From Rubricoccus marinus (GTDB taxonomy: Bacteria > Bacteroidota > Rhodothermia > Rhodothermales > Rubricoccaceae), in the NCBI RefSeq assembly GCF_002257665.1, contig NZ_MQWB01000001.1, forward strand, positions 3,173,119 to 3,237,118: 64,000 nucleotides of DNA. The letters are read 5' to 3'. Position numbers and translations under genes: made by a program. Within the stretch, counting starts at the first letter, position 1. The number at the start of each line of letters is the position of its first letter. Below, in pieces: positions 4,180 to 33,879 of this stretch. The notes beneath the pieces are model-generated. The model was not told where the DNA came from and did not search any database. It saw only the letters and a list, made by a program, of their open reading frames with translations.

Positions 4180-5622
4180 ATGTTCGACTACGACGACTTC
4201 GACGAGCCCATCGGAGAGGACGGCCTTCAGGATCTCGTTGAGGCGTACGAGCGCTCGCTTTCTGGCGAGGCGCCGTCGTACTTCGACAGCGATGCACTGG
4301 AGGGGGTAGCGACGTATTACTTCGAGGCCGGACGCTTCGAGGACGCGCTTGGCGTCGTGGACCACCAGCTTGGGCAGGGCGCGCCGTCTTCGGATACGTG
4401 GATGCGGCGTGGCGTTCTGCTCAATCACCTGGAGCGCCACGACGAGGCGCTGGACGCGTACGACCAGTCGCTCGCGCTCAACCCGATCGATACGGAAACG
4501 CTGATCAACCGGGGCATCACGCTGGACACGCTCGGCCGCGCCGACGAAGCGCTGGACGACTACGACCGCGCGCTGGACATCGACCCGATGATGGGCGACG
4601 CTCACTTCAACCGCGGCATCGCGTTCGAGAAGATGAGCCAGTTCGAGTTGGCCGCCGAGGCCCTCGAAACGTGCGCCGACCGCGACCCGGAGCACCCCGA
4701 GGTGTGGTACGAACTGGGGTACTGCTACGACCAGTTGGACCGCTTGGAGGACGCCATCGAGGCGTACGACAAGCAGATCGACATCGACCCGTACGCGCAC
4801 AACGCGTGGTACAACCGAGGGATCGTACTCAACCGGCTGGGACGCTTCCAGGAGTCCGTGGCGTCCTATGACTACGCGGTCCTGATCCTGGATGACTTTG
4901 CCTCGGCCTGGTACAACCGCGGCAACGCCCTCGCGAACGTGGGCGACCCCGCGGGCGCCATCGAGAGCTACCTGAAGGTGCTGGAGTACGAAGACGGCGA
5001 CGCCGCGACGTACTACAACCTCGGGATCGCCTACGACGAGTTGGGCGATCACAAAACGGCCGCCGACTACTTCCGCCGCGCTATCGCGGACGACGCGACC
5101 TACGCGGACGCGCACTACGGCCTGGGCTGCGCGCTGGACGCGCAAGCCGACTACGACGGCGCACTCGCGGCCTTTGCCGAAGCGCTCCGCCTGCAACCGA
5201 AGGAGGCCGAGTACTGGCACGCCCGCGCCGACGCGGAGTACAACGCCGGCCGCATCGCGGAGGCGTTGCGCTCCTACAACCGCACCGTCCGCCTCGCCCC
5301 GACAAACGTGGACGCGTGGATGGACCTCGCGGAAACGCGCTTGGAAGCCAACCAACCCGCTGAAGCGCTCGCGGCGTACGCCCACGTTCTCCGGCTGGAC
5401 CCAACCTCGCCAGAGGCCCATTTCCGCCAAGCCGTAGCCCTCGCGACCGTCGGTCAGCGCGAGAGCGCCGCCCGCTCGCTCCGCCGCGCCGCCGAACTCG
5501 ACCCCGAGCGCGCCGACGAAATGCGCCGCGCCTACCCGGACCTCTGGCGCGACCCGCGGGGAGGAAGCCTTCGGGGAGGCAACCTGCCGGGCCTGCCGGG
5601 ACTCTCGGAGGACGAGCGGTAG
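4180..5622 (+). CDS. Tetratricopeptide-repeat protein
   Basis: 480 residues made almost entirely of about a dozen 34-residue TPR units (recurring W-x-x-x-G/A...Y-x-x-A-x-x-x-Y-x-x-x-L-x-x-x-P pattern, for example WYNRGIVLNRLGRFQESVASY), after a very acidic N-terminal tail (MFDYDDFDEPIGED). No signal peptide or membrane segment is present, so a cytoplasmic protein-protein scaffold is likely; the partner is unknown. The ATG at 4180 was chosen because the upstream extension is basic and unlike the protein. The body (4200-5400) contains no copy of the 9-mer repeat; two copies sit near the 3' end. A frame opposite the gene is also open for most of its length, a high-GC artefact. Confidence 0.9.
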   Translation: MFDYDDFDEPIGEDGLQDLVEAYERSLSGEAPSYFDSDALEGVATYYFEAGRFEDALGVVDHQLGQGAPSSDTWMRRGVLLNHLERHDEALDAYDQSLALNPIDTETLINRGITLDTLGRADEALDDYDRALDIDPMMGDAHFNRGIAFEKMSQFELAAEALETCADRDPEHPEVWYELGYCYDQLDRLEDAIEAYDKQIDIDPYAHNAWYNRGIVLNRLGRFQESVASYDYAVLILDDFASAWYNRGNALANVGDPAGAIESYLKVLEYEDGDAATYYNLGIAYDELGDHKTAADYFRRAIADDATYADAHYGLGCALDAQADYDGALAAFAEALRLQPKEAEYWHARADAEYNAGRIAEALRSYNRTVRLAPTNVDAWMDLAETRLEANQPAEALAAYAHVLRLDPTSPEAHFRQAVALATVGQRESAARSLRRAAELDPERADEMRRAYPDLWRDPRGGSLRGGNLPGLPGLSEDER

Positions 5623-6509: not shown

Positions 6510-6526
6510 CCTCTGGCGCCAGAGGC
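6509..6526. repeat. Stop-codon palindrome GCCTCTGGCGCCAGAGGC after aroE
   Basis: An 18-bp perfect palindrome whose first G is the last base of the aroE TAG. It is the head-to-head form of the 9-mer pair and is probably a terminator or spacer hairpin. Confidence 0.8.
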
Positions 6527-7397: not shown

Positions 7398-9200
7398 ATG
7401 GATTCAGACGCCACCTCAGGTGACGCGACGACCGCCCCTGCATTACCCGATCCCTCCCCCGGCCTTAGCACAAGCGAATACCGCTGGACCCTCCGCCCCG
7501 TCGAGGACGAGGGCCACGTCGAGAGCATCGCGACGCAACTGAACGACTTGCCCGTGCCTCTGGCGCGGTCGCTCGTGCTCCGCGGCGTGGATTCCTTCGA
7601 GGGCGCGCGGACGTTTTTCCGGCCCGAGATCTCGCGCCTCCACGACCCGTTCGAGATGCGGGACATGGATCACGCCGCCGACCGCATCATCCGCGCCGTC
7701 GAGGAAAAGGAGCACGTCATGGTCTACGGCGACTACGACGTGGACGGGACCACGAGCACGGCGATGCTCCTGACGTTTTTCGAGTCCATCGGGCTCCAGG
7801 CGTCTTTCTTTATCCCGAACCGGTTTACGCACGGCTATGGCCTGAGCCGGTTCGGCGTGGACGAGGCCATTGCCAGAGGCGTCTCCCTTATCGTCGCCAT
7901 CGACTGCGGGATCACGGCTAACGCGGAGGCGGCATACATCCGCCAGCAGGGACTGGACCTCATCATCTGCGATCACCACACCGCAGGCGACGAGCTCCCC
8001 GTCGCGACGGCGGTCCTGGACCCGAAGCGTCCCGATTGCGACTACCCGTTCGACGGGCTTAGCGGCTGCGGCGTCGGCTACAAACTCATTCAGGCTGTCC
8101 TGGTGCGCATGGGCCTCCCGCCAGAGGACGCGCACACTTATCTGGACCTCGTCGCGGTCTCCACGGCCAGCGACATCGTGCCGATGATCGGGGAGAACCG
8201 GATCCTCATGCGCGAGGGGCTGCGTCAACTCTGCGACAACCCACGCCTCGGGCTCGCAGCGCTCGCTCAGCGGGCGGGCCTGGACCTGACGTGCTGTACG
8301 TCGTCCAAGATTGTGTTCCAGCTCGGGCCGCGCATCAACGCCGCCGGGCGCATCGCGGATGCGTCCATGGCGGCCGAGCTTCTGGCGTCCACGGACGCCT
8401 CCCACGCGCAGCGTCTCGTGGACGAGATCGAAGAGCTCAACCTGCAACGGCGTGAGCTGGACCGCGAGACGCGGGACGAAGCGCTGGAGATCGCAGAGCG
8501 CTTGATGCAGGACGATCCCGTCGCCCTCGTGGTGTACAAGGAAGGCTGGCATCCCGGCGTGATCGGCATCACGGCCTCTCGCGTCGCCGAGAAGTTCCAC
8601 CGGCCTACGATCCTCCTCACCTCGCAGGACGGCCAGACCGCCAAGGGATCGGCGCGGAGCGTCAAGGGCATCTCTATCTACAAAGCCCTCGCTCAGTGCG
8701 AGGACCTGCTGGATCGGTTTGGCGGCCACGCCTTCGCGGCGGGCCTCGCGCTTCCCGTTACGAGCATCGAGGCACTTCGCGAGAGGCTTCAACCCGCCGT
8801 TGAAGGCGCGCTCGAAGTGGACGGCCTCGTCCCCGAGATCGAACTGGACTCCACGCTCGACCTCCGCGACGTGACGACGCGCTTCTGGCGCGTGCTCCAG
8901 CAGTTCGGCCCGCACGGACCGGACAACCTGCGGCCCATCTTCTGGGGCCAGAACCTCCGGATTGTCGGCCAGCCCACCAAGGTGGGGCACGAGAAGCAGC
9001 ATCTCCGCTTCCGCGTTGCCCAGCTGGACGGGGGACCCACGTTCCCCGTTATCGGCTTCAACCTCGGTGACCGCTACGACGCCGCGCTCGCGAGCATTCG
9101 CCGCGGGCGCCCGATGGAGGTCGCGTTCCAGTTGGACGAGAACACGTGGAAGGGCCGCACGACGCTTCAGCTTCGCGCCAAGGACCTACGCCTGAGCTAG
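7398..9200 (+). CDS. recJ: Single-stranded-DNA-specific exonuclease RecJ
   Basis: A 600-residue DHH-family 5'-3' exonuclease acting in recombinational and mismatch repair. Metal-binding motifs in order: DYDVDG (112-117), D169-C-G, the signature C-DHH (191-194), then the DHHA1 domain with a GGH motif (FGGHAFAAG) and a C-terminal OB-like nucleic-acid-binding domain. Length and order match RecJ rather than the shorter NrnA. About 25 N-terminal residues before YRWTLRP are low-complexity and may not be conserved. The gene holds few exact 9-mer copies compared with its neighbours. It ends at a stop-codon palindrome. Confidence 0.95.
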   Translation: MDSDATSGDATTAPALPDPSPGLSTSEYRWTLRPVEDEGHVESIATQLNDLPVPLARSLVLRGVDSFEGARTFFRPEISRLHDPFEMRDMDHAADRIIRAVEEKEHVMVYGDYDVDGTTSTAMLLTFFESIGLQASFFIPNRFTHGYGLSRFGVDEAIARGVSLIVAIDCGITANAEAAYIRQQGLDLIICDHHTAGDELPVATAVLDPKRPDCDYPFDGLSGCGVGYKLIQAVLVRMGLPPEDAHTYLDLVAVSTASDIVPMIGENRILMREGLRQLCDNPRLGLAALAQRAGLDLTCCTSSKIVFQLGPRINAAGRIADASMAAELLASTDASHAQRLVDEIEELNLQRRELDRETRDEALEIAERLMQDDPVALVVYKEGWHPGVIGITASRVAEKFHRPTILLTSQDGQTAKGSARSVKGISIYKALAQCEDLLDRFGGHAFAAGLALPVTSIEALRERLQPAVEGALEVDGLVPEIELDSTLDLRDVTTRFWRVLQQFGPHGPDNLRPIFWGQNLRIVGQPTKVGHEKQHLRFRVAQLDGGPTFPVIGFNLGDRYDAALASIRRGRPMEVAFQLDENTWKGRTTLQLRAKDLRLS

Positions 9201-13313: not shown

Positions 13314-14903
13314 ATGCCTCGCATCCTCTGGGCCGACGACGAGATCGATCTCCTCAAGCCGCACGTCCTGTTCCTCGAAGCCAAAGGCTACTCCGTCGAG
13401 ACCGTGAGCAACGGCGCCGACGCGGTGGACCGCGTCGAAAACGCCCGCTTCGACGTGGTCTTCCTCGACGAGCAAATGCCCGGCCTTGGCGGGTTGGACG
13501 CCCTAGAGCAGATCAAGGAGCGGCGGCCGGAGACGCCCGTCGTGATGATCACCAAGAGTGAGGAGGAGCACCTGATGGAGGACGCCATCGGGCGCAAGAT
13601 TGCGGACTACCTCATCAAGCCTGTCCACCCGAAGCAGCTGCTCCTCACGTGCAAGCGGCTTCTGGACGGCGACCGCATCCGCGGCGAGCAGGTCCAGCAG
13701 GATTACCTCCAGACGTTTGGGCAGATCTCGGCGCGCCTCGGCGGCTCGCTGGATGCCGACGAGTGGATCGACGTGTACCGTCAGCTCGTGCGCTTCGACC
13801 TGGAGCTTCAGGGCGGCGACGAGAGCGTGCGCCAGATCCTCGATGATCAGTACAAGGGCGCCAACGAGGCGTTCTCTCGCTTTATCGAGCGCGAGTACCC
13901 GGAGTGGATCTCGGCCTCCGCCAGAGGCGAGAAGCCGGGCGAGGCCCGCCCAACGATGAGCCACGACATCATCGGCCAGAGCGTGATGCCGCTGCTCGGC
14001 GACGTGGGCGGCAAGCCTGAGCGGCCCGTCGTCTTTTTCCTCATCGACTGCCTCCGCTACGACCAGTGGCTGCTCTTCGAGCGCACGCTGCAGCAGCACT
14101 ACGAGGTGGAAACGGACTGGCACTACTCCATCCTGCCCACGGCCACGCCGTACTCGCGCAACGCCATCTTCGGAGGCCTGTTGCCGGTCGACCTCGCCAA
14201 GCGCTTCCCGGACCGCTTCACCGCCGACGTGCGCGATGACGACGAGCCCAGCCTAAACGCGCACGAGGACGAGTTCCTCCGCGACCTGCTCGACCGCCGC
14301 CACCGGAAAGACATCCGGATGCGCTACGAGAAGATCAGCAACCAGAGCGACGGTGCCGCCTTCGCCGACCGTGTAACGGATCTCTTGCAGGTGGACCTCT
14401 CGGCCGTTGTCGTCAACTTCGTGGACATCCTCGCGCACTCGCGCTCGGACTCCCGCATCCTCCGCGAGATCGCGCCCGACGTACCCGCGTACCGCGGCCT
14501 CAGCACGACGTGGTTTGAGCATTCCTGGCTGGCCGACGCGTTCAAGCAGCTTTCCGAGCACGACTGTACGATCGTCATCACGAGCGATCACGGCGCCGTG
14601 CGGTCACTCAACGCGACCAAGGTGATCGGCGACCGCGAGACGAGCACGAGCCTGCGCTACAAGCACGGCCGCAACCTCAAGGTGGAATCTCGCGAGGCCA
14701 TCTTCGTCAAGGAGCCCGAGACGTACGGCCTGCCGCGTGCGGGCATCAACGAGAACTACGTCTTCGCGACCGAGGACCGCTACTTCGTCTACCCGACGAA
14801 CTACCACAAGTACCAGGAGCGCTACCGCGACTCGTTCCTGCACGGTGGCGTAAGCCTGGAGGAGATCCTGCTGCCCGTCGCCACGCTCCGCCCGAAAGGC
14901 TGA
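13314..14903 (+). CDS. porX: PorX-type response regulator with PglZ (alkaline-phosphatase-like) output domain
   Basis: 529 residues. An N-terminal receiver domain (1-120) has the acidic pair D8-D9, phospho-acceptor D52 (VVFLDEQMPG) and K102 (YLIKP). A helical linker (125-210) leads to a PglZ/alkaline-phosphatase domain with metal-site segments FFLIDCLRYDQW and ITSDHGAVRSL. This is the architecture of Porphyromonas PorX, which with PorY and a sigma factor controls type IX secretion genes; PorX has been reported to be a zinc-dependent phosphodiesterase acting on oligonucleotides. The two T9SS cargo proteins in this window (27498 and 33992) agree with an active T9SS. It ends with a very strong hairpin at 14929-14963. 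Confidence 0.92.
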   Translation: MPRILWADDEIDLLKPHVLFLEAKGYSVETVSNGADAVDRVENARFDVVFLDEQMPGLGGLDALEQIKERRPETPVVMITKSEEEHLMEDAIGRKIADYLIKPVHPKQLLLTCKRLLDGDRIRGEQVQQDYLQTFGQISARLGGSLDADEWIDVYRQLVRFDLELQGGDESVRQILDDQYKGANEAFSRFIEREYPEWISASARGEKPGEARPTMSHDIIGQSVMPLLGDVGGKPERPVVFFLIDCLRYDQWLLFERTLQQHYEVETDWHYSILPTATPYSRNAIFGGLLPVDLAKRFPDRFTADVRDDDEPSLNAHEDEFLRDLLDRRHRKDIRMRYEKISNQSDGAAFADRVTDLLQVDLSAVVVNFVDILAHSRSDSRILREIAPDVPAYRGLSTTWFEHSWLADAFKQLSEHDCTIVITSDHGAVRSLNATKVIGDRETSTSLRYKHGRNLKVESREAIFVKEPETYGLPRAGINENYVFATEDRYFVYPTNYHKYQERYRDSFLHGGVSLEEILLPVATLRPKG

Positions 14904-16533: not shown

Positions 16534-17211
16534 ATGGGTAGAGCGGAAGAACGGACTCTTCCTGTATCCTCTAGCAGACCCTCAGCCCTCCGCGTGGACG
16601 ATCAACACCATTGCCCGACGTGCGGCGCCCCGCTGCGCATCAAAAACCGCTTCGTGAAAGCGGTCACCTGCGAGTTCTGCCAGAACGTGGCCCTCTACGA
16701 CGGCGTCCGCCTGGACCCCACCGGCCGCACCGCTTCGCTCGCTCAACTCAAGAGCCCGCTCTACCTCGACGCCACCGGCCGCGTCGGGACGCACGCCTTC
16801 CGCGTTCTGGGCCGTCTCGTGTACGAGTACGAGGGCGGCACCTGGCAGGAGTGGTTCTTGGATATCGGCGGCGAGAAGCGCGCGTGGCTGATCGAAGACG
16901 AAGGCGCGTTCTCCCTCCTCCAGAAGCGGCCTCTTGCGCAGGCGCCTCCCTTCGCGGGCATCCAGGTCGGTGACGTGCTCACGCTGGCCGACCGCGAGGT
17001 GCGCGTCGACGAGGTCGGCGAAGCGACCATCGTCTCGGCCGAGGGACAGTTCGGCACGCTCATTCTCCCCGGCGAAGCCATCGCCTACGTCGACGGCGCC
17101 TCTGGGGACGAAGAGGTGGGCCTGGAGTACGGCGAGCGCGAGGTGGAGCTGTTCGTGGGCCGCCCCGTGGATCGCGCGGACGTGACCGTAGACCCCGACC
17201 CTTTCAGCTAA
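16534..17211 (+). CDS. Zinc-ribbon DUF4178 protein
   Basis: 225 residues. A zinc ribbon (C27-x2-C30 ... C46-x2-C49) precedes a DUF4178 domain recognisable by HAFRVLGRLVYEYEGGTWQEWFL and a following strand-rich region. It has no membrane segment. DUF4178 proteins have no known biochemistry but recur in operons with DUF350 membrane proteins and polyamine enzymes, which is exactly the arrangement here. It is the first gene of the operon 16534-22709, with a two-base gap to the next gene. The frame is also open from the ATG used, but the domain would be complete from the later residues around DDQHHCPTC. Confidence 0.8.
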   Translation: MGRAEERTLPVSSSRPSALRVDDQHHCPTCGAPLRIKNRFVKAVTCEFCQNVALYDGVRLDPTGRTASLAQLKSPLYLDATGRVGTHAFRVLGRLVYEYEGGTWQEWFLDIGGEKRAWLIEDEGAFSLLQKRPLAQAPPFAGIQVGDVLTLADREVRVDEVGEATIVSAEGQFGTLILPGEAIAYVDGASGDEEVGLEYGEREVELFVGRPVDRADVTVDPDPFS

Positions 17212-17213
17212 AC

Positions 17214-17444
17214 ATGGGACGCATCCTCCTCCTCGTCTTTCTCGGCGGCCTCGGTGCATGGGCGGCCAGTTCCGCTGCCAAAGGCCCGAGCGCCGTGCGG
17301 CTCGCCAACGCTGCGACAAGTGCGGCGCGGCCCACCCGCGCCTACTACGTGCCGATCTACGTCCCCCCACCGCCTCGTTCCAACCGGACCGGAAGCACGA
17401 GCGGTCCGCGCGTCGGCGGAGGCGGCCCCAGCTTCGGCAAATGA
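17214..17444 (+). CDS. Small exported or membrane-anchored protein, unknown
   Basis: 76 residues: an N-terminal hydrophobic segment (ILLLVFLGGLGAWAASSAA, 4-22) and a short tail rich in Tyr, Pro, Ser and Gly (YYVPIYVPPPPR, GGGGPSFGK). It is tightly placed inside the DUF4178 operon, with two bases to the gene before and a 4-base ATGA overlap with the gene after. That spacing is the main evidence that it is real. It may be a small membrane subunit of the system; no family is recognised. Confidence 0.6.
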   Translation: MGRILLLVFLGGLGAWAASSAAKGPSAVRLANAATSAARPTRAYYVPIYVPPPPRSNRTGSTSGPRVGGGGPSFGK

Positions 17445-18937
17445 TGGAGCTCTCCCCTCTTGACCGCGCGCTCCGCGCTGCTCGCCGCGGGCACAACGTC
17501 GCCGCCCGCACGCTTCTCGACGACATCCTCGCGGCGGATCCTGCCCACGAAGAAGCCCTTCTCTGGCGCGCTCGCGTGGCGGAAGACGATGCCGAGCGCG
17601 CGGGCTTTCTACAACGCGTGCTCGCGGTCAACCCGCAGAATGCGTGGGCCGCGCAGCAACTCGCCGCCTCTGGCGGAGCCGAGGCCGCCTCTGGCGCCAG
17701 AGGCCAGGATGGCGTCCCGGACACGCTGACGTGCTCCAACTGCGGCGGATCGGTAGAGGTGCACCCCGAGCGCGGCAGCAAAGCCGCGATGTGCACCTAC
17801 TGCGGCAGCGTGCTGGACCTCGGCACCACGCAGTTGGATGTCATCGGCCAGATGAACCCCAAGGTGGGGCCGAAGCACCCCATCAAGCCCGGCGACGAGG
17901 CCACGTTCTTCGGCGAGAACCACCTCGTGATGGGCTGGATGCGCTACAAGGGCTGGGACTCCGAGGACTCCTGGCACTGGGACGAGTGGCAGCTCGTCAG
18001 CGATTCCGGCGTGCCGCGCTACCTCTCGCACTCCTCCGACGAGGGCTGGACGATCCAGACGCCGATCCGGCCCACGCCAGAGGTTTCGCGCTCCGGCATC
18101 AAGCTGAAAGAGGGCAAGGCGGGAATCAAGGAGTCCGGCCCGGCCAAGATCACGGCCATGCAGGGCGAGTTCACATTCCGCCCACGCCTGGACAAAACGC
18201 TGAAGGTGATCGAGGCCTCTCGCGGCGACCAGCATTACAGCGCCGAGCTCACCGGCGACGAACTCGAAGTCGTGGGTGGCCCTCGCGTCCCGGAGCGCGA
18301 GCTCTGGGCAGCCTTCGGGCGTGAAGACAAGCTCCGCGAGATGGACGCGCGCGCCGAGCGAGCGCGCAAGAGGCGAAAGGCGCTCCGCAGCGCCGCTCTG
18401 CTGTGCTTTCTCGCCGCTGGCGCCTATTTCATGGGCATTGGCTGGGCCTCTTCCAAAGACGGCTCCACCGTTTCCAGCGGAACAACCGAGTTCGTCTCGG
18501 ACCTCAGCGACGTTCCTGTCCTCCCGAGCCGCAGCGAGTTCACCGCCGAGCGGCGCGACTCGCTCTCGCTCGGAACGGTAGAGGTGGTGGACGCGAGCGA
18601 GGTCTACGAGGTCGTCGTCGCGACGCCACATGATGGCTTGTACCCCTACCCAGCCGCCGAGGTCTACATCGAAGAGCCCGATGGCGACGTCGTCAATCTC
18701 GGGCGCCTGACCAACCGGAGTGACGGCTACGAACTGAAGCGGGCCTTCCGGCCCAACGCGGTGGGCTCGCACACGCTCCTGATGTTCGTGGAAGAGCGGA
18801 GCCCCGACCGCCTGACGTTTACCACGACCGTCCGTACCGGCATGTGGGACCCCGGCCCCTTCGCGGTGGCCTGTGGCCTCGCCGTCCTTCTCGGCCTCGT
18901 GCTGTTCCTCGCCGGCGGCTTCGGCCGCATCGACTAG
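17441..18937 (+). CDS. Large DUF4178 membrane protein with TPR-like start and zinc ribbon
   Basis: 498 residues. The order is a short helical TPR-like region (5-75), an Ala/Gly linker made partly from 9-mer copies (ASGGAEAASGARG), a zinc ribbon (C98-x2-C101, C118-x2-C121), the DUF4178 region (about 135-300, with WHWDEWQLVSDSG), a charged helix, one membrane helix (around SAALLCFLAAGAYFMGIGW), an extracytoplasmic beta domain and a second membrane helix at the C-terminus. The start ATG overlaps the previous stop (ATGA); a frame open further upstream runs through the small gene and is rejected. Likely the membrane scaffold of this operon; function unknown. Confidence 0.8.
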   Translation: MMELSPLDRALRAARRGHNVAARTLLDDILAADPAHEEALLWRARVAEDDAERAGFLQRVLAVNPQNAWAAQQLAASGGAEAASGARGQDGVPDTLTCSNCGGSVEVHPERGSKAAMCTYCGSVLDLGTTQLDVIGQMNPKVGPKHPIKPGDEATFFGENHLVMGWMRYKGWDSEDSWHWDEWQLVSDSGVPRYLSHSSDEGWTIQTPIRPTPEVSRSGIKLKEGKAGIKESGPAKITAMQGEFTFRPRLDKTLKVIEASRGDQHYSAELTGDELEVVGGPRVPERELWAAFGREDKLREMDARAERARKRRKALRSAALLCFLAAGAYFMGIGWASSKDGSTVSSGTTEFVSDLSDVPVLPSRSEFTAERRDSLSLGTVEVVDASEVYEVVVATPHDGLYPYPAAEVYIEEPDGDVVNLGRLTNRSDGYELKRAFRPNAVGSHTLLMFVEERSPDRLTFTTTVRTGMWDPGPFAVACGLAVLLGLVLFLAGGFGRID

Positions 18938-18955
18938 CGCCAGAGGCCTCTGGCG
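18938..18955. repeat. Stop-adjacent palindrome, tail-to-tail form CGCCAGAGGCCTCTGGCG
   Basis: The two 9-mers face the other way (sharing AGGCCT at the centre). The palindrome starts at the base following the TAG of the DUF4178 membrane gene, inside an operon, so it cannot be an absolute terminator. Confidence 0.8.
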
Positions 18956-18982
18956 TTCCTTTCCCCTTCCGCTCTCGCTCCT

Positions 18983-19279
18983 ATGCGCGCCTTCCGCTCC
19001 ACCCTCGCCCTCGCGCTGACCACGCTCGCCGCCGCTCCCGCCTTCGCGCAAGAGGCCGCGGGCGACGGCAGCCTCCAGGTTTCCGTCATCGTCGCGACGA
19101 TCCTCTACGGCGCCATCGGCATCCTGCTGACGCTCGCGGGCTACTTCGTCTTCGACAAGATCGTGGGCCTGGACCTCAAGCGCGAGCTCGTGGAGGACCA
19201 GAACACGGCCATCGGCATCATGCTCGCGGGCGTGTTTATCGGGTGCTCCATCGTTGTTGCGGCCGTGATGCTGTCGTAA
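18983..19279 (+). CDS. DUF350 integral membrane protein (YjfL-like)
   Basis: 98 residues. An N-terminal signal or membrane segment (to about residue 23) is followed by two further helices, VIVATILYGAIGILLTLAGYF and NTAIGIMLAGVFIGCSIVVA, joined by a charged cytoplasmic loop (DKIVGLDLKRELVEDQ). DUF350 proteins come as single or double repeats; this is a one-repeat form. In E. coli the relative YjfL lies beside a PspA-like protein and a glutathionylspermidine-synthase-like enzyme, so the link of DUF350 with envelope stress and polyamine enzymes is seen elsewhere. It stands between the DUF4178 gene and the spermidine-synthase-like gene. Confidence 0.85.
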   Translation: MRAFRSTLALALTTLAAAPAFAQEAAGDGSLQVSVIVATILYGAIGILLTLAGYFVFDKIVGLDLKRELVEDQNTAIGIMLAGVFIGCSIVVAAVMLS

Positions 19280-19291
19280 CCCTGCCCCGTT

Positions 19292-19311
19292 GGCCTCTGG
19301 CGCCAGAGGCC
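19292..19311. repeat. 20-bp palindrome between DUF350 and the SpeE-like gene
   Basis: The head-to-head 9-mer palindrome extended by G/C on each side, 12 bases after the DUF350 stop. Confidence 0.8.
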
Positions 19312-19328
19312 GACCCGCTTCGTCTGTC

Positions 19329-20993
19329 TTGCCCCCTGACCTCGACACGCTGACTCCGGACCTCCCGCGCCCCGCCTCTGGCGACGGCGCGCGCATCGGC
19401 GTGCCGAGTGTGGCCGTAGCGCCAGAGGCCGAGCGCGAGCTGACCGACCGCCAGGTGCGCGTGCTGCTCACGTCCGTCTTGGTCGTGGCGACGTGCGGGC
19501 TGCTCTACGAGCTCATCGTCGGCACGCTCTCGTCGTACCTGCTGGGCAACTCGACGCTGCACTTCTCGCTCACCATCGGCGGGTTCATGACCGCCATGGG
19601 CGTCGGCTCGCTCGTCTCGCGCCGCATCCACGGGGATCCGCTCGTCTGGTTCGTGGGCGTGGAGTTGGCCATCGGCGTGGCCGGCGGGTGCTCCGCGGCA
19701 GCGCTCTACTGGGCGTACAGCTACGCGCCTCTGGCGTACCACGCGGTCATGGCGGGCGCCGTCTTGGTGATCGGCGTGCTCGTCGGCCTGGAGATCCCGC
19801 TCGTGGCGCGCGTGCTGGACATGGCCGGGCGCCAGAGGCGCGATACCGTCGCGAACGTGCTCGCGGTCGATTACCTCGGCGCGCTGCTCGCGGCGCTGGC
19901 GTTCCCGCTCGTGCTGCTGCCCACGCTCGGCGTGCTACGGACGGCGTTCGTGACGGGCGCCATCAACCTCGGCGTGGTCGTGGCGTGCCTGTGGGCGTTC
20001 CGCAAGATGCTCCGCCGCCAGAGGTCCTACCGGCCGCTGGCGCTGGCGACGCTCGCGCTCGGCCTGCCTCTGGCGGCGGGCGCCGTCGGCGCGGGCTGGC
20101 TGGCGGACGTGTTCGAGGCCAAGCTGTACCGCGCGCCGATCCTGTTCACCGAGCAGTCGCCGTACCAGCGGCTCGTGGTCACGCGCTCGCGCCAGGGCGA
20201 CACGCGCCTCTTCCTCGATGGCGCGCTCCAGTTCGCGACCAGCGACGAATACCGCTACCACGAGGCGCTCGTGCACCCCGCGATGGCGCTCGCCGCGCGG
20301 CGCCAGAGGGTCCTGATTCTGGGCGGCGGCGACGGCCTCGCCACGCGAGAGGTGCTGAAGTGGCCCGGGGTGGAGTCGGTCACGCTCGTCGACCTCGACC
20401 CAGCCGTGACCGACCTCGCGCAGCGCCACGCGGCCATTCTGGAGGCCAATCAGGGCGCGCTCTCGGACCCCCGCGTCGAGATCATCAACGCCGACGCGTA
20501 CCGCTTTATCGAGGACTCGCCTCTGGCGTTCGACGTCGTCCTCGTGGACCTGCCCGACCCCAACCACGAGTCGCTGGCGAAGCTCTACAGCCGCCCGTTC
20601 TACGAACTCCTGCGCCAGAGGCTCGGCGCGGGCGCGATGGTCTCGGTTCAATCCACATCGCCCTACTTCGCGCCTGAGGCCTTCTGGAGCATCGTCGCCA
20701 CGGCCGAGGCTGCGGACCTCCACCCTCTTCCCTACCACATCTACGTTCCCAGCTTCGGCGACTGGGGCTTTTTCCTGGGCTCGACGCACGCGGTCAACCC
20801 CGAGCGCTTTGCCGCCCGCCTCGCGCCTCTGGCGAGCGCCGCCGAGCCGCTGCGCTTCCTCACGCCAGAGGCCTTCGCCGCCGCGCAAACCTTCGCGCCG
20901 GACCTTACGCGCCCCGCCGGCGTGGAGGTCAACACGCTGGACGATCCGGTCCTGCTCGACTACTACCAGAAGGGGTGGGCACGATGGCAGTAG
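19329..20993 (+). CDS. Membrane-embedded spermidine/spermine synthase-like aminopropyltransferase
   Basis: About 554 residues. The N-terminal half (about 30-260) is hydrophobic with roughly seven membrane helices; the C-terminal half is a spermidine-synthase fold: substrate strand LFLDGALQFATSDEYRYHEALVHP, nucleotide motif VLILGGGDGLATREVLK, acidic VTLVDLDP, and the catalytic-region Asp segment VVLVDLPDPN. It should transfer aminopropyl groups from decarboxylated SAM, which the adjacent SpeD can supply. The start is uncertain: TTG 19329 is used here, GTG 19401 is possible, and longer frames begin in the palindrome. It overlaps speD by 10 bases. Eleven exact 9-mer copies are inside, many in loops. 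Confidence 0.85.
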   Translation: MPPDLDTLTPDLPRPASGDGARIGVPSVAVAPEAERELTDRQVRVLLTSVLVVATCGLLYELIVGTLSSYLLGNSTLHFSLTIGGFMTAMGVGSLVSRRIHGDPLVWFVGVELAIGVAGGCSAAALYWAYSYAPLAYHAVMAGAVLVIGVLVGLEIPLVARVLDMAGRQRRDTVANVLAVDYLGALLAALAFPLVLLPTLGVLRTAFVTGAINLGVVVACLWAFRKMLRRQRSYRPLALATLALGLPLAAGAVGAGWLADVFEAKLYRAPILFTEQSPYQRLVVTRSRQGDTRLFLDGALQFATSDEYRYHEALVHPAMALAARRQRVLILGGGDGLATREVLKWPGVESVTLVDLDPAVTDLAQRHAAILEANQGALSDPRVEIINADAYRFIEDSPLAFDVVLVDLPDPNHESLAKLYSRPFYELLRQRLGAGAMVSVQSTSPYFAPEAFWSIVATAEAADLHPLPYHIYVPSFGDWGFFLGSTHAVNPERFAARLAPLASAAEPLRFLTPEAFAAAQTFAPDLTRPAGVEVNTLDDPVLLDYYQKGWARWQ

Positions 20994-21565
20994 ATCCTCG
21001 GTCTTCAGTGGATGCCCTCCAGCGCACCTCCGTAGGGGCGAGGCTCGCCTCGCCCGCATTCGGAGCGCTGAGCGAGGGTGAGACAAACCCCGCACCTACC
21101 AAACCGCTCTCGCCTCTGGCGCCAGAGGCAAGCGCGAGCCAACCGGCCGGAGGCCACCACCTGCTCGTCGATTTCTGGGTGGCCGACGCGGAGCCGCTGC
21201 GCCGCGTGGCGACGTGGGAGACGCTGCTGCCGGACGCCTGCCGCGAGGCGGGCGCAACCGTGCTCGGCGGGCGCTTCCACCAGTTCGAGCCCGAAGGGGT
21301 AACCGGCATCGTCCTCCTGGCCGAGTCGCACGCGAGCCTCCACACGTGGCCCGAAGCCGGGCTCGTGACGCTGGACGTGTTCACCTGCGGCGCGCTCGAT
21401 GCGCACGCCATCGTAGATCGCATCCGAGACGCCCTCGCGCCCGTACGTGAGCGCATTACCGCCGTCGACCGGGGCGACCGTGCCCCCGACGCCGCGCGCA
21501 GCGCCAGAGGCCCGGCCTCTGGCGAAGCCCTGCCAAACAGCGCCTCTGGCGTACCCTCTCCGTAA
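20984..21565 (+). CDS. speD: S-adenosylmethionine decarboxylase proenzyme with repeat-derived extensions
   Basis: The SpeD core (about 57-165 of 193 residues) has the self-cleavage site AES115H with H120 in SLHTWPE and C135 in DVFTCG; cleavage before S115 would create the pyruvoyl group that decarboxylates SAM for spermidine synthesis. It overlaps the SpeE-like gene by 10 bases and supplies its substrate. The first 56 residues have no SpeD counterpart: they are translated from the structured element at 21031-21100 plus a 9-mer palindrome at 21112-21129 (LAPEA). The last 30 residues are similar repeat-derived sequence (ARGPASGEA). No in-frame start codon lies after the element, so the extension appears to be made. 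Confidence 0.88.
   Translation: MAVDPRSSVDALQRTSVGARLASPAFGALSEGETNPAPTKPLSPLAPEASASQPAGGHHLLVDFWVADAEPLRRVATWETLLPDACREAGATVLGGRFHQFEPEGVTGIVLLAESHASLHTWPEAGLVTLDVFTCGALDAHAIVDRIRDALAPVRERITAVDRGDRAPDAARSARGPASGEALPNSASGVPSP
21031..21100. repeat. Structured repeat-like element inside the speD 5' region
   Basis: A 70-base segment bounded by GTAGGGGCG on the left and CGCACCTAC (complement GTAGGTGCG) on the right. It contains a 9-bp hairpin, GGGCGAGGC (21036-21044) with GCCTCGCCC (21047-21055). The near-inverted ends and the internal hairpin look like a REP/MITE-like intergenic unit, here read through in frame by speD. Only one copy is in this window. Confidence 0.5.
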
Positions 21566-32022: not shown

Positions 32023-33879
32023 ATGCCTCAGATCAGAAACGTCGCCATCGTCGCCCACGTCGACCACGGCAAGACCACCCTCGTCGACGCCCTGCTCCAG
32101 CAGAGCGGCACCTTTAGCGCCCACGAGGTGATCCAGGACCGAGTCATGGACTCGATGGACCTCGAGCGCGAAAAGGGCATTACGATCATGGCCAAGAACA
32201 CGGCCGTCCGCTTCACGCCAGAGGCCGGGGACCTGGCGGGCGAGGAGATGAAGATCAACATCATCGACACGCCCGGTCACGCCGACTTCGGCGGCGAGGT
32301 GGAGCGCACGCTCCGCATGGTGGACGGCATCATGCTTCTCGTCGACGCCGCCGAGGGCCCGCTGCCGCAGACGCGGTTCGTGCTCAGCAAGGCGCTCGCG
32401 CTCGGCCTCGTGCCCATCGTGGTCATCAACAAGATCGACCGCGGCGATGCCCGCGCCGAGGAGGTGCTGGACGAGGTCTACGACCTGTTCATCGACCTCG
32501 ACGCCGACGAGCATCAGTTGGACTTCCCCGTCATCTACGCCGTCGCCCGCGACGGCGAGTGCACGACGGACCTCTCGGAGCCGCTGACGGACTTGCGGCC
32601 CATCTTCGAGGCCATCGTGGAAACGGTCCCCGCGCCCAAGGGCGACCCGGAGGCGAGCCTGCAGTTCCTCGTGACGGACGTCAAGCCCGACGCCTACCTC
32701 GGGCCTCTGGCGATCGGCCGTATCGTCAACGGCACGATCAGCACCAAGCAGCGCGTGCTGCTGTGCGGGCGCGACGGCACGCAGAAGCCGGCGCAGGTGA
32801 CGCAGCTGTTCATCTCCGAAGGCCTGGACCGCGTCCCGGTGGAGAGCGCGCCTGCCGGTGAGGTGGTCTACGCCGCAGGCCTGGCCGGCATCGGCCTGGG
32901 CGAGTCCGTAGCCGACGCGCAGGACCCGCAGCCGCTGGAGCCTCTGGCGATCGACGAGCCCACGCTCTCGATGGAGTTCCGCATTAACAACAGCCCGTTT
33001 GCGGGGCAGGACGGCAAGTACGTCACGAGCCGCAACCTCCGCGACCGCCTCATGAAGGAGGGCGAGGCCAACCTCGCGCTCCGCATTGAGGAGACCGACA
33101 GCCCGGACCGCTTCCTCGTCTTCGGACGCGGTGAGCTCCAGATGGCGATCCTCATTGAGCAGATGCGCCGCGAGGACTACGAGTTCGCCGTCGGCATGCC
33201 GCAGGTCATCACCAAGCAGGTGAACGGCAAAACGCACGAGCCGTACGAGAAGGCCATCATCGACGTGGCCGAGGAGTTCATGGGCGTCGTCATCGAGACG
33301 CTCGGCACCCGCAAGGGCATGATGGTCGGCATGAAGAACAACGGCTCCGGCCGTGTCCGCATGACCTTCGAGATCCCCGCCAGAGGCCTCATCGGCTACC
33401 GGACGGAGTTCCTCACCGACACGAAGGGCACGGGCATCCTCACGCACCTCTTCGACGGCTACCGCCCGTGGGCCGGCCCCATCACGCACCGCGCGACGGG
33501 CGCGATCGTGGCGGACCGCCCCGGCAAGGTGACTGGCTACACGATCATCAACCTCCAGGAGCGCGGCCAGCTCTTCGTGAGCCCGACGGATCAGGTCTAC
33601 AACGGCATGATCGTCGGCGAGAACGCGCGCGACGAGGACATGGAGGTCAACGTCACGAAGGAGAAGAAGCTGACGAACCACCGTGCGGCGTCGGCGGACA
33701 ACTTCGAGAAGATGAACCCCGCCAAGAAGATGAGCCTGGAGGAGGCCATTGAGTTCATCCGCGACGACGAACTGATCGAGATCACGCCCAACCACACCCG
33801 CCTCCGCAAGCGCGAGCTGGATCCGCACGAGCGCAAGCGCGCGATGGTGGCCCGCAAGGCGGAAGCCAAGGGCGACTAG
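32023..33879 (+). CDS. typA: Ribosome-associated GTPase TypA/BipA
   Basis: 618 residues, the regular length. G1 [10 protein letters not shown] (11-20), the effector-region [11 protein letters not shown]3 [13 protein letters not shown]4 NKIDR, then EF-G-like domains II, III and V and the C-terminal BipA domain ([12 protein letters not shown]-like segment, [28 protein letters not shown]). BipA acts on the 70S ribosome during 50S assembly and under stress or low temperature. Four exact 9-mer copies occur in this highly conserved gene. It is followed by a tail-to-tail repeat and a strong terminator. Confidence 0.96.

Follow-up and report, generated by a model that had tools for sequence, protein, structure and literature searches.

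The genome of Rubricoccus marinus carries an asymmetric 10-nucleotide word, GCCTCTGGCG/CGCCAGAGGC, at 14,176 copies (7,049 and 7,127 by orientation), where its reversed-word control occurs 61 times. The signal is genome-wide and species-specific, and sister species carry other words, which goes beyond what a first-pass annotation of this DNA had described. On balance we think it probable, by analogy with DUS and USS, that GCCTCTGGCG/CGCCAGAGGC is a self-recognition word spread by biased transformation, a mechanism that we infer from the patterns set out below. A wider proposition, for which we hold the chances to be about even, is that a Rhodothermales family possesses its own DNA self-recognition language, independent of those of Neisseria and Haemophilus, with at least three dialects built on a 5'-CGCC core and at least two switches between them, one species being the densest among the systems compared and having tripeptides raised up to five-fold across its proteome. 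The kind of system is known, the phylum is unreported and the density is very high. Uptake-sequence systems are a textbook case of molecular drive that is based on two gamma- and betaproteobacterial families. If true, the present case would be a third independent origin in another phylum, would make word origin and replacement testable, and would provide a clean measure of DNA-level drive on protein sequence, ASG being raised 5-fold in the sampled proteome.

The window, the whole stretch of 64,000 nucleotides analysed, contains 280 exact copies of the 8-mer core form CCTCTGGC/GCCAGAGG, against 4.7 ± 2 expected from dinucleotide-preserving shuffles. A G stands after CCTCTGGC in 97% of these copies and before it in 89%, and there is no conservation beyond the 10 nucleotides. 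The complete genome (4.43 Mb, GC about 0.69) contains 15,851 8-mers in balanced orientations (7,900/7,951), with 591 for the reversed-word control, and the word density is 3.2 to 3.6/kb. Nothing remotely comparable in abundance of CCTCTGGC/GCCAGAGG was found in 295 other Bacteroidota genomes, and neither orientation of the 8-mer appears as a word in any of 5.39 million papers searched. Chance or base composition as the origin is ruled out by the shuffles, the reversed-word controls and relatives whose GC is similar. The word CGCCAGAGGC differs from its reverse complement; the genome shares with DUS and USS systems a non-palindromic short word far above its expected copy number.

Distribution was analysed in 56 stretches of 20 kb, one per 70 kb (1.12 Mb), plus the window, 1.18 Mb in total or ~27% of the genome; the main relatives were represented by 0.14 to 0.26 Mb each, and the compared genomes are 81 to 98% complete. 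A simple Markov gene finder yielded 961 genes with approximate starts. Orientation is balanced in nearly every 20-kb sample, with no overall bias, spacing between words is near-exponential, and the variance/mean of words in 5-kb bins with GC > 0.66 is 0.99, so that the equal orientations and spread across the whole core chromosome that typify DUS and USS are found here too. Density between genes is 8.69/kb compared with 3.14/kb in coding DNA, a 2.8-fold difference. The scarcity in recently acquired DNA that is likewise characteristic of DUS and USS is seen in three 5-kb bins with GC < 0.60, which hold 6.3 words compared with about 20 elsewhere. Word-poor islands of low GC (0.59-0.60) lie in G000:C1:2520001-2540000 and, at about 5-10 kb, in C1:3570001-3590000 of the R. 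marinus assembly and are probably recently acquired DNA; word density might serve as a clock for time since acquisition. Tandem arrays with a 16-nucleotide unit made of the word plus 8 nucleotides (CCTCTGGCGCGGGACG; CCTCTGGCGGGGTAGG) were observed at G000:C1:2334505-2334608 and 2789844-2789899.

Single words outnumber paired words about 4:1. The sample contains 451 abutting inverted pairs (290 + 161), 324 of them intergenic, including the following in the window:
6510..6525, unstranded: abutting inverted pair immediately past a stop codon
9201..9216, unstranded: abutting inverted pair immediately past the recJ stop codon
18939..18954, unstranded: abutting inverted pair GCCAGAGGCCTCTGGC directly past a DUF4178 stop codon, hairpin/terminator-like
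19294..19309, unstranded: abutting inverted pair CCTCTGGCGCCAGAGG shortly before the SpeE-like gene start
21113..21128, unstranded: abutting inverted pair between speE and speD
Pairs number 0.56 per convergent gap, 0.37 per tandem gap and 0.26 per divergent gap, an order that is retained per kb, and they lie a median of 20 nt past the stop codon. Each is predicted to fold into a 7-bp stem with a tetraloop, and T-tracts are weak, so that a terminator role is no more than plausible. One-off variants of the 10-mer are also in excess, at 1,635/Mb compared with 281 to 362 in relatives. They fall mainly at positions 3, 6, 7 and 9 (counted from 0) and are nearly absent at 0, 1, 2, 5 and 8, a pattern suggestive of a protein that reads a core, much as DUS depend on an essential CTG core (PMC3630211).

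The word has no stop codon in any frame, and therefore all six coding phases are open. The first-pass annotation had read them as six tripeptides, and all six are in use: the coding words of the sample comprise 1,024 in phase ASG, 821 PE, 582 PLA, 422 ARG, 199 RQR and 104 LWR, a ten-fold spread that appears to track the acceptability of the residues. When compared with the predicted proteins of three relatives, G296 (the congener) and G299+G301, tripeptide frequencies are raised 5.0-fold for ASG, 3.6-fold for LWR, 2.7-fold for PLA, 1.9-fold for PE[AVDG], 1.85-fold for ARG and 1.5-fold for RQR, whereas scrambled control tripeptides are at 0.7 to 1.2-fold. The idea that a signal at the DNA level shapes protein sequence, first raised in that annotation, is supported by sequence comparison, since the tripeptides are 1.5 to 5-fold more frequent than in relatives and the words are lineage-specific and fall on less-conserved residues.

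A gene cluster at 16594-21565 of the window encodes two DUF4178 proteins, a membrane protein of the DUF350 type and proteins like SpeE and SpeD. The SpeE-like protein has a Spermine_synth domain at residues 308-485 and a long helical N-terminal part. The codon alignment of its gene leaves out the G301 locus. Coding features of the window, with their basis in brackets, are:
4200..5400, + strand: TPR repeat region containing no words (word positions)
17666..17704, + strand: coding word cluster giving ASGGAEAASGARG in a DUF4178 protein (translation, positions)
19329..20993, + strand: SpeE-like gene with 11 exact words (Pfam PF01564, E 2.8e-33)
19375..19382, + strand: word in phase ASG, which alone among the 11 is also present in the congener G296 (codon alignment)
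19421..19428, - strand: word in phase PE, N-terminal linker (codon alignment, structure model)
19728..19735, + strand: word in phase PLA, loop between helices (alignment, structure model)
19831..19838, - strand: word in phase RQR, loop at the site of an insertion in the G299 orthologue (alignment, model)
20017..20024, - strand: word in phase RQR, loop (alignment, structure model)
20067..20074, + strand: word in phase PLA, within a predicted helix (alignment, structure model)
20302..20309, - strand: word in phase RQR, loop preceding a strand, confident model part (alignment, model)
20520..20527, + strand: word in phase PLA, loop, confident model part (alignment, model)
20614..20621, - strand: word in phase RQR, helix end/loop, confident model part (alignment, model)
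20826..20833, + strand: word in phase PLA, in an 8-residue stretch missing from G296 and G299 (alignment)
20864..20871, - strand: word in phase PE (codon alignment)
21503..21550, + strand: three words that make up the C-terminal tail ARGPASGEALPNSASG encoded by the SpeD-like gene at 21179-21565 (Pfam AdoMet_dc, translation)

The protein positions that carry words are the less constrained ones. Conservation was scored without R. marinus itself, as identity among at least three relatives, and was 0.52 at word columns, 0.64 in the eight flanking codons on each side and 0.73 in the remainder (P 9e-7 and 7e-6; nine genes). Pairwise comparison with five relatives gave the same order, word below flank below rest. 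The further claim that strongly constrained genes resist the word was only weakly borne out: the most conserved quartile has 1.75 words/kb compared with about 3.1/kb and is the only quartile that is clearly lower, and the gene-level correlation of word density with conservation is weak (rho -0.19, P 0.045, n = 117 genes). Constraint thus selects sites more than genes, given the site-level gap in identity and the weak gene-level rho. Amino acid change in the R. marinus lineage went in the predicted direction, 0.175 at word codons compared with 0.050 elsewhere, but its acceleration relative to the congener at the same columns did not reach significance (OR 2.1, P 0.15, 14 genes). That copies sit in loops agrees with a structure model of the SpeE-like protein, which is poor overall (mean pLDDT 52) and confident only for about residues 265-440: loops contain 22 of 35 word residues and 160 of 519 others (OR 3.8), and, within its confident part, the spermidine-synthase domain, 7 of 9 word residues and 54 of 170 others.

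Differences between genes are mostly Poisson scatter about 3.1/kb, because words per gene give a chi2/df of 1.37 over 895 genes, the count for the SpeE-like gene has a P of 0.019 and the variance/mean of the bins is 0.99. The assertion that copy number varies strongly between genes was therefore an overstatement. Position counts reproduce the 11 copies in the SpeE-like gene (rank 23 of 895, an ordinary upper-tail value), the empty TPR body at 4200-5400 (the full TPR gene has 2 words, at 5409 and 5541), the 4 copies in typA (32023-33879; identified by Pfam/NCBIfam) and the ASGGAEAASGARG stretch, found at window position 17666. In recJ (7398-9200), for which 2 copies had been reported, we count 3 internal words, in addition to the inverted pair abutting the stop codon. 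The SpeE-like gene as a hot spot was dropped, its P of 0.019 being one among 895 genes.

The congener has just 2 of the 166 alignable coding words, in genes of 74% nucleotide identity, so the position-conserved copies in distant orthologues that the first-pass annotation had named as counting against a DNA-level signal were not found. Of 180 coding sites compared with the congener, 166 align ungapped and 14 fall in gaps, and the orthologous 8-mer differs at 3.5 of 8 bases, compared with 2.1 for random 8-mers. The words are thus young and were made mainly by substitution, because so few are shared, mismatches exceed the background and gaps are few. Origin by substitution at permissive sites instead of insertion is also what is described for DUS and USS. 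Mobile insertion as the source of coding copies is ruled out by the ungapped alignments. In-register conversion of an old dialect word into the new one was seen at 3 of 166 sites, above expectation yet not the main route. In the SpeE-like gene, 1 of the 11 words recurs in G296 and none in G299; the G296 orthologue contains six copies of G296's own word.

That other word is CCGCCAGC, with 8,020 copies in G296 (control 1,599) and 7,454 in G302 (control 2,023); in R. marinus it is at control level (1,111 vs 1,125). Conversely, CCTCTGGC/GCCAGAGG is lacking in the congener, and only the R. marinus genome carries it. A further word, CCGAGGCGG, occurs 4,084 times in G299, 3,300 in G301 and 2,523 in G303 (controls 459, 241 and 304). 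The words of the relatives are weaker, 4 to 14-fold over controls, and CCGCCAGC is little enriched between genes. 5'-CGCC is common to the three words CGCCAGAGGC, CCGCCAGC and CCGCCTCGG. On a well-supported RecJ tree, ((R. marinus,G296),(G302,(G301,(G299,G303)))), the simplest reading would be that CCGCCAGC is ancestral to the six genomes, with one switch in the R. marinus lineage and one in that of G301, G299 and G303. We read this as dialect turnover inside one Rhodothermales family. In the small amount of sequence examined, no strong word was seen in G297, G298 and G300. A candidate fourth dialect, CCGTCAGC in G179, was dropped as it is partly a local tandem array with a 7-nt period; in the same genome AGCCGTCAGC is over-represented, partly in 7-nt tandem arrays, and may be a genome-wide word. 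On G310:C1, words of the CAACCTGC(C)AAC type are strongly enriched locally, probably because of a repeat protein instead of a dialect.

Among the closest counterparts is DUS (PMC3630211, PMC2397512), likewise an asymmetric word of ~10 nt in thousands of copies, enriched between genes, forming inverted-repeat hairpins, placed at permissive sites of core genes, scarce in acquired DNA, accompanied by an excess of near-misses and diversified within one family into related dialects with a short common core (here 5'-CGCC). In Neisseriaceae, DUS are found in dialects (PMC3630211), and they occupy permissive sites in core regions and inverted-repeat terminators and are missing from new genes (PMC2397512). 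In contrast to DUS, the present word belongs to Bacteroidota, reaches 3.2-3.6/kb instead of roughly 1-1.3/kb or less (about three times the densest DUS genomes), has a ratio of exact copies to one-off variants of 1:0.46 compared with 1:1.15-1.45 in two Neisseria genomes, lacks a stop codon in every frame, and is not known to have a ComP-type receptor or to act in transformation. With the USS of Pasteurellaceae (PMC1626085, PMC2346458) it shares substitution in existing genes, random spacing, subclade-specific variants and, putatively, use in terminators, and USS are known to arise by substitution, not insertion (PMC1626085). However, the USS core is flanked on one side by further motifs, which are lacking here, and USS are less dense and bear no family-level relation. 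Within Bacteroidota, Riemerella is competent with unusual machinery (PMC8459023). Naturally competent R. columbina shows a preference for its own DNA (PMC7965970). The over-represented k-mers of Riemerella and Flavobacterium (PMC7965970) are from the same phylum, but these candidates are A-rich and at only about 0.5/kb, unlike the 14,000 copies of a GC-rich 10-mer described here.

In an uptake mechanism, a putative surface DNA receptor would prefer word-bearing fragments, which would enter by a type-IV-filament/ComEC route and then recombine into the chromosome. With each cycle of uptake, word-bearing alleles would overwrite word-less ones by biased gene conversion, a molecular drive, and copies would build up where proteins tolerate them, dragging along the amino acid changes PLA, ASG, LWR, RQR, PE and ARG. 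A shift in receptor specificity would allow a new word to displace the old, giving dialects, and protein evolution at word sites would be a side effect of the DNA signal. ComEC is near-universal and non-discriminating. It is present in R. marinus, whose main chromosome also has a GspF/PilC-like gene and a GspE/PilB-like gene, the latter at about 209.7-210.9 kb of C1; these constitute the machinery seen, and no word-specific receptor was identified in this genome. Canonical N_methyl pilins were found only on its contig C11 and in 0 of 4 relatives tested, and the congener, whose assembly is 91% complete, yielded no PilB-like ATPase. C11 (168 kb, about 70% GC in the parts read) carries genes for type IV pilins and for an ATPase resembling PilB; its parts read contain 0, 0 and 2 words where about 10-14 each were expected, and it may be a plasmid or a contaminant or have been acquired recently.

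An uptake drive and rival drives without uptake selectivity predict the same sequence patterns, and a gene-conversion or mutation bias toward the word would fit all the distribution data, as would any process turning near-matches into it. We know of no gene-conversion or mutation process with an asymmetric specificity of 10 nt, and dialect switching and core-like tolerance of variants better suit a recognition protein, so we regard such a bias as unlikely. Even less probable is a by-product of methylation-directed mismatch repair (Elhai's model), with a resident methyltransferase for the word. Cyanobacteria provide the precedent: HIP1 is a genome-wide 8-mer of comparable habit, and in some genomes alternate HIPs take its place, each paired with a methyltransferase that fits it (PMC4390886). 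However, HIPs are palindromes tied to methyltransferases, their near-misses are mostly at the two ends rather than, as here, at internal positions 3, 6 and 7 and one end only, and the model saturates near 1/kb instead of the 3.6/kb seen here. Searches for PF00145 (C5) and PF01555 (N4/N6) methyltransferases found neither in R. marinus, both being positive in control genomes. The model is disfavoured because of the non-palindromic word, the near-miss pattern and the missing PF00145 and PF01555.

Chi sites are over-represented, asymmetric, species-specific octamers, which speaks for a Chi-like reading, and are usually strand-biased with replication. A recombination or repair signal of the RecBCD/AddAB type, kept by selection and protecting or steering recombination of own DNA, is nevertheless very doubtful: 3.6/kb far exceeds known Chi densities, the two orientations are about equally frequent overall and in almost every 20-kb sample, and neither the abutting inverted pairs that follow stop codons nor the full turnover between congeners is readily explained by such a signal. 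We give scarcely any weight to a dispersed REP/MITE-like mini-element whose palindromic pair would be the unit moved by a transposase. The mostly intergenic inverted pairs would be in its favour, as would words in small indels, such as that at 20826 in the SpeE-like gene, but gaps in the alignments account for just 14 of 180 coding sites, single words predominate, conservation ends at 10 nt and all six coding phases are used, unequally. For coding copies, the alignments indicate that the mini-element reading is largely refuted. Elsewhere in the window, 13314-14903 encodes a protein with a response-regulator and a PglZ domain that is PorX-like, a type IX secretion regulator by architecture.
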